From TM7 phylum sp. oral taxon 349 (lineage in GTDB: Bacteria; Patescibacteriota; Saccharimonadia; Saccharimonadales; Saccharimonadaceae): a stretch of DNA of 64,000 bases. The stretch lies in contig CP072328.1 in the NCBI GenBank assembly GCA_018127705.1, positions 372,001 through 436,000 of the forward strand, in the 5' to 3' direction. Below the pieces are notes generated by a model. That model did no database searches. It saw only the letters and a list, made by a program, of their open reading frames with translations, and was not told the origin of the DNA. The translations under genes were made by a program, and so were the position numbers. Below are positions 11,751 to 16,389 of this stretch, piece by piece; within the stretch, counting starts at the first letter, position 1; each line of letters opens with the position of its first letter.

Positions 11751-14501
11751 ATGAAACGCTATAATCCATCTGAAATTGAGCCGAAGTGGCAGCAAATCTG
11801 GGCGGATGATGCCCGCTGCCATGCTGTTGACTTTGGCGATAAACCAAAATACTACATCACGGGTATGTTCCCGTATCCAAGCGGCGCAGGCATGCATGCA
11901 GGGCATTTTTTGGAGCACTCCATCGTTGATGCGGTTGCGCGGTTTCGCCGGGCGCTTGGGTATAACGTATTATATCCGATGGGCTGGGACAGCTTCGGAT
12001 TGCCGGCGGAAAATTATGCGATTAAAACAGGCAGGTCGCCGAAACAAACTGTACCCGAAAATATTGCGAACTTCAAGAATCAGCTGCAGCGCGTTGGTGC
12101 AAGTATTGATTGGACGCGCGAAATCAATACCAGCGACCCAGCGTATTATAAGTGGACGCAGTGGATTTTTACGAAGTTATTTGAGCGCGGGCTTGCGTAT
12201 CAAAAGGATTCGCTCCAGTGGTGGTGCCCAAAAGACAAAACAGTGCTTGCGAATGAACAGGTGATTGACGGCAAATGTTGGCGCTGTGATTCTGTGGTTA
12301 TCAAGAAGCCGATGAAGCAATGGTTCTTCAAAATTACAGCATACGCTGATGAATTACTCGCCGAGTTGCCCGAAATGGATTGGCCGGACAAAATTAAAAT
12401 AGCGCAGCGAAACTGGATCGGCAAAAGCGAGGGTGCGGAGGTGAATTTCCTGATTGACTGCAAGCCGTCTGATTCGCTGAAATTTACGCCTGAGCTAGCA
12501 GAGAAAATCAAGGCTGGTGCTAAGACGAATACGATTCGCTTGGGGGCAAAAAATCTTGCAGCGGGCGATGTTGCCGAACTTATGTCGCGCGATGGTAATG
12601 TCGTAGAATCGTTTGGTTATGCGAAAATTACGAATGTTCAGAAAATGCCGCTTAAAAAGGTGCCGAACAATATGCCTGGACATGAGAGCTATCACGACAA
12701 TGGTGAGAAGCTTGCTGATTTTCAGAAATTTTACGGTAATGATGTGACGCTAGATAGCGTAGTTGCGGTATACGATTTTGAATATATTCCGCCAATTACC
12801 GTTTTCACGACGCGTCCCGACACGATTTTTGGCGCAACGTATCTAGTGCTTGCGCCTGAGCATCCCCTGGCGCGAATGCTAGTGGACGGAGATACCCAGG
12901 CGGCAGTAAATGCATACATTGACGAAGCGGTGAAAAAAACTGAAATTGATCGCACGAATGACACCAAGGGGAAGACAGGCGTTTTCACTGGCAGCTACGC
13001 GGTCAATCCGGCGAATGGCGAAAAAATGCCGATCTGGGTAGCTGATTATGTGCTCGGCGGTTACGGTACGGGTGCAGTGATGGGCGTACCGGCGCATGAT
13101 GAACGTGATTTTGCATTTGCAGAGAAATTTGAGCTACCGGTCGTTGAAGTCATTGAGCGTCCTGAGGACGACGCGAGTACTGAACAGTGTTATCATGGTG
13201 AGGGGATTCTCGTAAACTCTGGCGCATTTGACGGCGCACGGAGTGAAGACGCGCGCGAGCAGATTGTTGCGTGGTTGGAACAAGAAGGTGTTGGCTGCGC
13301 TAAGACAACATATAAGATGCGTGATTGGCTAATTAGCCGCCAACGTTATTGGGGTGCGCCAATTCCGATCGTTCATTGTCCGATTGACGGTGTAGTAGCT
13401 GTACCGGAGCATGATTTGCCGGTGCTACTTCCAGATGTTGACGATTTTGTACCGCGCGGCGACGGTAAATCTGTATTGGCGGCGCAGGAAGATTGGGTAC
13501 ATACGACTTGCCCAAAGTGCGGCGGTCCAGCAATGCGCGAAACAGATACGATGGATGGTTATGCGTGTAGCTCGTGGTACCTATTACGCTACACAGATCC
13601 ACACGATGATCAATGCGCATGGGGTACGAAACAAGTTAACTACTGGGCGCCGGTCGACATGTATGTCGGTGGCGACCATGCAACGGCGCACTTGCTCTAT
13701 GTTCGTTTTTGGACGCACGTCTTTCGCGATCTCGGACTGACAGAATTTGCCGAGCCGGTTAAGCGACTTGTGTATCATGGGCTAATTCAAGCTGAGGATG
13801 GGCGCAAAATGAGCAAAAGCCTCGGCAATGTTGTCGACCCGCTTGATGTTATTGATCAAGGCTATGGCGCCGATGCGCTTCGTACATTTGAGTTGTTCCT
13901 CGGGCCAATTACTGAGAACTCCAGTTGGTCGAGCCGCGGCATCGCTGGCGTGTATCGATTCTTGAATCGTTTGTGGACGCTTGTACAAGAATACGACGAA
14001 AGCGATAAATCAGCGCAAGTAAACGTAAAAAAGCTTGATAGTTTGACGCACGCAACAATTAAAAAGGTTACCGACGATATTTATCGCTTAAGCTTCAATA
14101 CGGCGATTGCCGCTCTGATGGAGTATGTAAATGATCTGTACAAACTAAAAACTGAGGGCTTTTCACCTGCGTGGCGGTCGGCGCTTGAGACGCTCGTGCA
14201 GCTCGTGCAGCCTTTTGCGCCGCATATGGCTGCTGAGCTGTGGAAGCAGCTTGGGCATGATTCGCAGCTTGATTTTGTTGATTGGCCAGATTTTGACGAT
14301 GCGAAAATTATGCAGGACACGATGACGATTGTCGTGCAAGTCAATGGTAAAGTACGCGCCAAATTACAGGTAGCAACCAGCGCGGGCGAAGATAAAATCA
14401 AACAGCTCGCCCTGAGCGACGAAAGTGTCAAACGCTATGTTGTGGGCGAGCCGAAGAAAGTGATTTATGTGAAAGGTAAGCTAATTAGTATAGTAATTTA
14501 G
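11751..14501 (+). CDS. leuS: Leucyl-tRNA synthetase with an extra domain in the editing region
   Basis: LeuRS of 916 residues that charges tRNA-Leu. Class I signatures are present: HAGH (in PSGAGMHAGHF) and KMSKS. The CP1 editing domain contains the threonine-rich site TTRPDT at residues 353-358 and GTGAVMGVPAHDERD. Between GAEV (228-231) and the editing site lie about 120 residues where bacterial enzymes usually have about 20. The extra segment (about 243-346) has GAKTNTIR, a GD pair, GYAKI and HESY, resembling an ASCH domain. The anticodon-binding domain and a C-terminal domain (MTIVVQVNGKVRAKL) follow. Expressed from a leaderless promoter. Confidence 0.97.
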   Translation: MKRYNPSEIEPKWQQIWADDARCHAVDFGDKPKYYITGMFPYPSGAGMHAGHFLEHSIVDAVARFRRALGYNVLYPMGWDSFGLPAENYAIKTGRSPKQTVPENIANFKNQLQRVGASIDWTREINTSDPAYYKWTQWIFTKLFERGLAYQKDSLQWWCPKDKTVLANEQVIDGKCWRCDSVVIKKPMKQWFFKITAYADELLAELPEMDWPDKIKIAQRNWIGKSEGAEVNFLIDCKPSDSLKFTPELAEKIKAGAKTNTIRLGAKNLAAGDVAELMSRDGNVVESFGYAKITNVQKMPLKKVPNNMPGHESYHDNGEKLADFQKFYGNDVTLDSVVAVYDFEYIPPITVFTTRPDTIFGATYLVLAPEHPLARMLVDGDTQAAVNAYIDEAVKKTEIDRTNDTKGKTGVFTGSYAVNPANGEKMPIWVADYVLGGYGTGAVMGVPAHDERDFAFAEKFELPVVEVIERPEDDASTEQCYHGEGILVNSGAFDGARSEDAREQIVAWLEQEGVGCAKTTYKMRDWLISRQRYWGAPIPIVHCPIDGVVAVPEHDLPVLLPDVDDFVPRGDGKSVLAAQEDWVHTTCPKCGGPAMRETDTMDGYACSSWYLLRYTDPHDDQCAWGTKQVNYWAPVDMYVGGDHATAHLLYVRFWTHVFRDLGLTEFAEPVKRLVYHGLIQAEDGRKMSKSLGNVVDPLDVIDQGYGADALRTFELFLGPITENSSWSSRGIAGVYRFLNRLWTLVQEYDESDKSAQVNVKKLDSLTHATIKKVTDDIYRLSFNTAIAALMEYVNDLYKLKTEGFSPAWRSALETLVQLVQPFAPHMAAELWKQLGHDSQLDFVDWPDFDDAKIMQDTMTIVVQVNGKVRAKLQVATSAGEDKIKQLALSDESVKRYVVGEPKKVIYVKGKLISIVI

Positions 14502-15428: not shown

Positions 15429-15908
15429 ATGGCATCAAACCGGCATCTGGGTAGAATTGTCGCATTGCAGGCACTGTATGAATATGAAGTCCGCACGCAA
15501 GCGGGCGACACATCGGATACGCTTGAGGCTATTGTTGCGCGCGATATTGTTCGGTACGAATCAGCGATTGACGACGTTACGTTTGTAAAAGAGCTTGCAG
15601 ACGGTGTCGTTGATAAGCAGGCGGAGCTTGATGCGGCGCTACAGCCGATTGCGCCAGACTGGCCAATTTCGCAGATAGCGCGCGTTGACCGCACGGTGCT
15701 GCGAATCGGCCTGTACGAATTGCTATACCGCAGCGACGTCGTGCCACCAAAGGTAGCAATCAACGAAGCGGTTGAGCTTGCGAAAGCGTTTGGTTCCGAT
15801 AATTCAAGCCGGTTTGTGAATGGCGTGCTCGGCACGGCGTATCGCACGCTGGTAAAAGGGGCATCGGATAATGACGAAACCGCCAAAGAAGCAGCAAAGC
15901 AAAAATAG
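15429..15908 (+). CDS. nusB: Transcription antitermination factor NusB
   Basis: All-helical NusB, 159 residues, which with NusE (S10) binds boxA RNA in rRNA antitermination. Typical segments: RIVALQALYEYE near the N-terminus, RVDRTVLRIGLYELLY, VAINEAVELAKAFGSDNSSR and FVNGVLGTAYR. Length is normal with a short polar tail. The 3' end overlaps the nudix gene by 38 bases. Confidence 0.93.
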   Translation: MASNRHLGRIVALQALYEYEVRTQAGDTSDTLEAIVARDIVRYESAIDDVTFVKELADGVVDKQAELDAALQPIAPDWPISQIARVDRTVLRIGLYELLYRSDVVPPKVAINEAVELAKAFGSDNSSRFVNGVLGTAYRTLVKGASDNDETAKEAAKQK

Positions 15909-16389
15909 ATTCGATCACATCCGCAGGTATTTGACGCGTTCGCGTTCGGCGTCGATTCAAGAAATTGTGCGTGAGCCGACAAGCGGTGGCGTGATTTTTC
16001 GCCACGGCGTCAATGGACTGGAAATCTTATTGATTCAAGATGCTAAAGACCGCTGGACGATTCCGAAAGGGCATATTGAAGAGGGTGAGACTGCAGTGCA
16101 AACAGCACGCCGCGAAATTGGCGAAGAGGCAGGATTGCATGATGTTGATATGCTCGGATGGCTCGGTAAAATTTATTTTCGATATCGCCGAATTGATAAA
16201 CTCGTATTGATGACGACGCAAATTTATCTAGTACGTGTTCGTACAAGCGGAGATGAAATCCAAAAAGAGGATTGGATGAAAGGTATCAAGTGGTTTCCGT
16301 TCAATGAAGCTCTCGACTTAATTGAATATGAAGATATTGCAAAACTAATGTTAAAGGCAAAAACACGTATACGAGAGGAGAAGTTATAA
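15871..16389 (+). CDS. NUDIX hydrolase
   Basis: Nudix hydrolase of 172 residues. The nudix box is complete: GHIEEGETAVQTARREIGEE followed by AGL, giving the metal-binding REUXEE core. It cleaves nucleoside diphosphate-linked compounds; the substrate cannot be told from sequence. The N-terminal 35 residues are basic and overlap the nusB gene. It ends directly before the rnc start, so it is translated within the nusB-rnc operon. Confidence 0.9.
   Translation: MTKPPKKQQSKNRFDHIRRYLTRSRSASIQEIVREPTSGGVIFRHGVNGLEILLIQDAKDRWTIPKGHIEEGETAVQTARREIGEEAGLHDVDMLGWLGKIYFRYRRIDKLVLMTTQIYLVRVRTSGDEIQKEDWMKGIKWFPFNEALDLIEYEDIAKLMLKAKTRIREEKL

Follow-up and report, generated by a model that had tools for sequence, protein, structure and literature searches.

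An ASCH domain within the editing domain of leucyl-tRNA synthetase in Saccharimonadia

The synthetase gene and its extra segment

The present study concerns a long extra segment in the leucyl-tRNA synthetase (LeuRS) encoded by leuS in TM7 phylum sp. oral taxon 349, within a stretch of 64,000 nucleotides (contig CP072328.1, positions 372,001 to 436,000) that is called the window here. The host enzyme (Table 1) is of the bacterial type, with a score of 986.9 bits against TIGR00396 (bacterial LeuRS; cut-off 548.4) and Pfam matches to the editing domain PF13603 and the catalytic domain PF00133. HIGH-type and KMSKS sequences together with the editing motifs are the hallmarks of LeuRS, and by sequence HAGH (residues 49-52), KMSKS (686-690), TTRPDT, and AHDERD are all present. 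A preliminary description of this DNA had placed GAEV at residues 228-231 and TTRPDT at 353-358, with an ASCH-like domain in the enlarged space between them. Both motifs are where it put them, and the spacing is enlarged, with 131 residues from linker Trp222 (of WIG) to Thr353 of TTRPDT. Among 21 LeuRS that lack a large insert this distance is 24 in 17 and 30, 31, 37, and 47 in the other four. The empty site of 1h3n, the best PDB LeuRS match of the window protein and presumably the T. thermophilus enzyme, also measures 24 residues, counted on its alignment. Residues 239 and 243 of 1h3n meet window residues 238 and 349, residues 239 and 248 of 7nty meet 237 and 344, and residue 259 of 3zgz, presumably the E. 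coli enzyme, meets 345; from these gaps, the window LeuRS therefore has about 105-110 residues that are extra. The extra length was not found in the solved bacterial LeuRS with an alignment across this place (1h3n and 7nty), which are short there. The segment, at a place designated site A, probably occupies the tip of a beta-hairpin, judging by strands 225-236 and 349-353 of a full-length model that was itself poor (predicted local distance difference test, pLDDT, 58.8; predicted template modelling score, pTM, 0.37). It is not an assembly fault, because another genome of the genus (G484, LeuRS 97% identical) has the same insert, and nine genomes more have an ASCH domain at this position.

By profile, predicted fold, and active-site residues, the extra segment is an ASCH domain, which bears out the preliminary description. 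PF04266 (ASCH), with a gathering score of 21.2 bits, was matched at 23.8 bits by the whole protein and at 28.4 bits by the insert on its own, and the match is therefore not one of chance; it is the sole ASCH match at an expectation value (E) <=0.001 in the 1.02-Mb host genome. The octapeptide GxKxxTxR is the ASCH motif, and GAKTNTIR at residues 256-263 fits it, as had been read from the sequence earlier. AlphaFold2 modelled residues 232-349, on an alignment with seven relatives, at a mean pLDDT of 91 and a pTM of 0.80, with four of five models similar in confidence and the fifth scoring 63.8. The predicted structure is an ASCH fold, neither a zinc hairpin nor a beta hairpin, and its top Foldseek match was crystalline E. 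coli YqfB (9kyf; E 5e-6, probability 1.00), with a TM-score of 0.78 by YqfB length; of the 16 Foldseek matches at E<=0.001, assigned by their titles, 12 were YqfB or ASCH proteins, two were DUF984, and two carried the title of an uncharacterised protein. When the PDB was searched by sequence with the insert alone only a chance-level match was obtained, and a profile built from 20 Patescibacteria ASCH domains (profile A1) was needed to reach YqfB (E 1.5e-6).

Table 1. Positions in the window of leuS, its ASCH insert, and residues discussed in the text
Feature	Position	Strand	Basis
leuS, bacterial-type leucyl-tRNA synthetase hosting the insert, 916 amino acids	11751..14501	+	one intact frame
Extra segment (site A), about residues 238-348, probable tip of the first beta-hairpin of the editing (connective peptide 1, CP1) domain	12462..12794	+	1h3n alignment
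ASCH domain, residues 242-346	12474..12788	+	PF04266, AlphaFold2, Foldseek
Lys258, Thr261, and Arg263 codons, aligned with YqfB Lys21, Thr24, and Arg26	12522..12539	+	profile alignment
Glu312 (of GHE), aligned with YqfB Glu74	12684..12686	+	profile alignment
Tyr328, probable counterpart of YqfB Tyr89	12732..12734	+	invariant Tyr in profile A1; spacing
TTRPDT, threonine-rich motif of the LeuRS editing site, intact	12807..12824	+	sequence

Comparison with YqfB suggests what the domain may do. E. coli YqfB is an N4-acetylcytidine (ac4C) amidohydrolase. According to one report (PMC6972931), Lys21 is proposed as the base, Thr24 as the nucleophile, Arg26 as the oxyanion hole, and Glu74 as the acid of YqfB; alanine mutants of the first three were inactive, E74A lowered turnover 100- to 1000-fold, and Asp27 was invariant (100%) across the YqfB group. 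Lys, Thr, and Arg are kept in all 15 embedded and all 23 standalone ASCH domains examined here, and Glu in 12 of the 15 embedded (10/11 in LeuRS, 2/4 in valyl-tRNA synthetase, ValRS) and 19 of the 23 standalone domains. All four of these key residues are present in 10 of 11 LeuRS inserts, and Tyr stands at the position of Tyr328, by its spacing the probable equivalent of YqfB Tyr89, in 11 of 11. Most embedded copies look active on these residues, while some may not be. The ASCH fold, GxKxxTxR, and the Lys/Thr/Arg/Glu of the proposed catalytic set are common to the insert and YqfB, but YqfB is a free-standing protein of 103 amino acids, and its Asp27 and His70 spacing are absent from the insert, which is therefore classed as a member of the ASCH family and no further, and which may work in a YqfB-like manner.

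In the single pair that was tested (G000/G484), purifying selection acts on the insert: the ratio of nonsynonymous to synonymous changes (dN/dS) was 0.18 for the ASCH part as against 0.05 elsewhere in LeuRS, and per site of the ASCH part nonsynonymous changes were significantly less frequent than synonymous changes (Fisher test on rounded counts, p=6e-5). Evolution of the insert is more rapid than that of LeuRS, with identities between G521 and G434 of 85% in the core and 60% in the ASCH part, and its G+C content was below that of the rest of the gene in all seven carriers compared (of 11).

Distribution and history of the ASCH domain

Profile A1 matched 40 of the 379 genomes of a phylum-wide sample, six of them in frames of more than 700 amino acids (LeuRS of G000, G162, and G269 and ValRS of G210, G126, and G274). 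In a family sample of 198 genomes 30 had an ASCH match, eight in frames of that length, all LeuRS; with two genomes shared between samples, long ASCH frames were found in 12 different genomes and were LeuRS or ValRS in every case. A class survey gave a LeuRS match in 145 of 147 genomes (four of the 145 under 700 amino acids and cut short), with ASCH at site A in six of the 40 frames of at least 890 amino acids, and added the carriers G561 and G567; the frames below 890 amino acids that were not cut short were taken, on length, to lack room for an insert, some of them also being read. Comparison with LeuRS of related bacteria, as advised in the preliminary description, shows that 11 Patescibacteria LeuRS carry ASCH at the same hairpin and that many relatives do not. 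All 10 of the 11 inserts that were scanned passed the Pfam ASCH cut-off (that of G567 scanned with one mistyped end residue), and the insert of G561 was recognised by motif only. When 84,980 species genomes were scanned for two short peptide patterns, a search that is insensitive and so says nothing on absence elsewhere, seven loci were confirmed, five of Saccharibacteria type (one titled only Patescibacteria group), one from Howlettbacteria, and one from Parcubacteria. A viral source was considered and rejected, no relative being confirmed among 11 pattern matches in one viral contig scan. A 438-residue frame of G076 with a weak 40-residue ASCH match appeared signal-peptidase-like by eye and was set aside as chance.

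Four ValRS, all above the TIGR00422 cut-off, carry an ASCH-type domain at two other places. In G210 (above the Pfam cut-off) and in L114 (found by tblastn) it follows the GWP motif, while diverged domains occupy the loop after WYC, presumably the zinc loop, in G126 (18.1 bits, short of the Pfam ASCH cut-off; E 6e-12 with profile A1) and G274 (no Pfam ASCH match; profile A1 E 6e-10).

The carriers are scattered among LeuRS lineages. LeuRS trees were built without the LeuRS fragments of G533 and G488, the first from 77 rows with Nudix columns kept and the second, rebuilt without these columns and without G190 and G274, from 75. Carriage of ASCH required 8 changes on the first core tree and 9 on the second (8 forced by starred branches), and clustering was little above that of shuffled labels, 8 of 500 shuffles being as low on the first tree and 37 of 500 on the second. 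G434 and G521 carry the insert and G465, G527, and G508 do not; likewise G269 has it and its relatives G252 and G480 do not. In successive 40-column windows of the alignment, identity of G269 with G252 was 90-100% in the five before the site, 76% astride the junction, and 96% after it, the corresponding values with G480 being 92-97%, 80%, and 92%.

A tree of the ASCH domains themselves (38 rows, 105 columns, including 23 standalone domains, with weak matches and G204, which has an internal stop, left out) placed the ten Saccharimonadia LeuRS inserts in one clade (support 100/99) beside the standalone domain of G171, with the Howlettbacteria LeuRS insert apart from it and the ValRS domains as two further pairs, the diverged pair grouping with standalone proteins. 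On this tree there are at least four apparent entries into synthetases, or three without the diverged ValRS pair. For the ten Saccharimonadia carriers, ASCH data rejected the LeuRS topology (approximately unbiased test, p=0.0002; log-likelihood difference 51), and four models all gave this rejection (p between 3e-6 and 8e-4). To control for the shortness of the alignment, seven windows of 107 columns were taken from the LeuRS core (the last 41 of 790 columns falling outside); the first was not testable, most likely owing to the LeuRS of G494 being cut at a contig end, and the six testable windows all preferred the LeuRS topology and rejected that of ASCH. Core and ASCH identity were not significantly correlated across 45 pairs (Spearman 0.18, p 0.25). 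By these comparisons the history of the insert differs from that of the host LeuRS, and the pattern suggests that the guest ASCH domain moved between species independently of the host enzyme. Flanking DNA of 16 genes, inspected by eye, gave no clear sign of a recombination tract or terminal repeats.

Other guests of LeuRS and neighbouring observations

Site A also receives other sequences. An alpha/beta serine-hydrolase-like domain is found there in LeuRS of G126 (L086 149-3073), G210 (L088 124-3156), and G593 (L148), with PF06821 scoring just under its cut-off in G210 and above it in the other two; a Nudix domain is found in G294, and in G318 (L151) a domain of about 125 residues without significant Pfam match lies between WIGRS and TTRPDT. 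Low-complexity stretches also occupy the site. A second site in the editing domain, before GILVNSG, holds a Nudix domain in Saccharimonadia, for example in L037 2636-5926 (G521), L081 146-3067 (G459), and L089 286-3645 (G294). A Nudix-box pattern occurs somewhere in the protein in 30 of the 40 long LeuRS frames (of 145), and several more have looser Nudix-like inserts. In the short LeuRS of G530 (L092) and G514 (L101) a pattern search did not find the AHD editing motif, which hints that editing may be reduced in some Saccharimonadia.

Among ASCH domains outside synthetases, G190 (L014 1495-2310) has one at the N-terminus of a 271-residue protein whose C-terminal part appears RNase H-like by eye. 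Downstream of leuS in the window there is a free-standing Nudix-like gene (15871-16389, + strand) between genes that by eye are nusB-like and RNase III-like.

What the ASCH guest may do

We favour, at a rough probability of 0.57, the reading that the insert is a complete YqfB-like ASCH amidohydrolase, a guest that is horizontally exchanged, probably active, and housed in a permissive LeuRS hairpin rather than serving as an aid to tRNA binding. ASCH copies would pass from the LeuRS gene of one member of the Saccharimonadia to that of another, the simplest route being homologous recombination in the conserved sequence that flanks site A on either side, and a LeuRS with the insert would keep aminoacylating and editing. 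The guest itself would cleave the acyl group from N4-acylated cytidine-type nucleosides, or from others with a similar acyl amide, that are toxic or that the cell salvages from its surroundings, and would take no part in tRNA editing. Several observations weigh against this reading. The position of YqfB Asp27 is Leu264 in the window insert, and a conserved His lies directly before Glu312, whereas YqfB His70 is four residues before Glu74; the G269 LeuRS insert has Gln and Ala in place of His and Glu, and neither Glu nor Tyr is present in the two diverged ValRS domains. The test for purifying selection used a single pair, and the conflict between trees is based on about 105 columns. The nearest empty-site relatives of the window LeuRS, G476 and G452, have 30 and 31 residues at the hairpin, and therefore loss of an insert there is possible. 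Finally, the host genome has no match to PF13718 or PF05636, which we take to be the ac4C makers TmcA and TmcAL, the controls being positive in 3 and 4 of 14 genomes; turnover of ac4C in the cell's own tRNA is therefore unlikely as the purpose.

The slightly long hairpins of G476 and G452, together with the occurrence of all ten Saccharimonadia inserts as one clade at one site, would also be compatible with a single ancient insertion followed by vertical inheritance and many losses. This explanation is disfavoured and we consider it highly improbable, as the LeuRS topology is rejected by ASCH data under all four models and as each of many losses would need to leave a 24-residue hairpin; because the empty site mostly has 24 residues, repeated gain is simpler than many exact losses. 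The domain could instead be a tolerated passenger, arriving by chance recombination at a permissive hairpin tip and doing little or nothing. Acceptance of unrelated domains and low-complexity stretches at site A, the faster evolution of the insert in G521/G434, and the loss of Glu and His in G269 are all consistent with a passenger, but retention of the four key residues in 10 of 11 LeuRS inserts, a dN/dS well below 1 in the pair tested, and the finding that the long ASCH frames were all class I synthetases make us doubt it.

The preliminary description had suggested that the module might change tRNA binding or proofreading, and an RNA-handling role, in which contact of the domain with tRNA-Leu adjusts proofreading or the transfer to the editing site, has some attraction. 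The ASCH fold is related to PUA, the insert sits in the editing domain, and LeuRS and ValRS, which account for the long ASCH frames of the 12 genomes, are both tRNA-editing enzymes. That suggestion did not fare well, and we judge the role to be unlikely. Close relatives whose LeuRS is otherwise very similar do without the insert, its history differs from that of LeuRS, the amidohydrolase residues are retained, unrelated domains occupy the same site, and the ValRS copies sit at other places. Studied YqfB-type enzymes, moreover, bound no tRNA in a gel-shift assay (PMC9599836). The guest is optional, and tRNA handling by it is a possible but weakly supported role.

The favoured guest amidohydrolase might also be one case of something broader. 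The other guests at the two LeuRS sites suggest a general carrier role of LeuRS, perhaps linked to protection of the synthetase. It is conceivable, though we hold it to be a tentative and rather improbable extension, that the two LeuRS sites and the ValRS places of Patescibacteria are docking sites for exchangeable ASCH, Nudix, and alpha/beta hydrolases, swapped between species as protection of the carrier synthetase against inhibitors of the nucleoside or aminoacyl-nucleotide type or for clearing acylated by-products that arise close to it.

No paper on ASCH with leucyl-tRNA synthetase or any other tRNA synthetase was found in the open-licence literature, which fits the earlier statement that the fusion is undescribed, although a description elsewhere is possible. 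Nothing relevant on Nudix or insertions with synthetases was present in that literature among the matches listed, and a term search of the main text of the AARS Online paper found neither ASCH nor Nudix. A parallel by name is NF040702 (NCBIfam), isoleucyl-tRNA synthetase with an N-acetyltransferase domain, likewise a class I synthetase joined to a small enzyme domain, but both the synthetase and the domain are different. We know of no link between ASCH and toxins of LeuRS or immunity to them. One such toxin is agrocin 84, for which transferable LeuRS immunity exists (PMC5059758); the self-immunity LeuRS AgnB2 resembles the present case as a horizontally transferred LeuRS trait and is tied to a LeuRS toxin, but it is a second LeuRS resisting by altered binding, and the available part of that report does not speak of an added enzyme domain. 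Insertions I1ae-I4ae in CP1 of archaeal and eukaryotic LeuRS are, like the window insert, extra segments on the editing-domain surface, peripheral and of largely unclear function, but nothing in the available part of PMC7229842 presents them as enzymes or has them move apart from LeuRS.

The present case is of a domain resembling an enzyme that appears to enter one place of an essential gene repeatedly, with a history different from that of its host, while being absent from near neighbours. Domain insertions in tRNA synthetases are usually viewed as old, lineage-specific traits. The scattered carriers form a natural series of pairs with and without the insert in which a guest enzyme in LeuRS could be tested, and LeuRS would become a physical partner for the poorly understood ASCH superfamily. 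The pattern may also be a clue to how bacteria with tiny genomes exchange functions.
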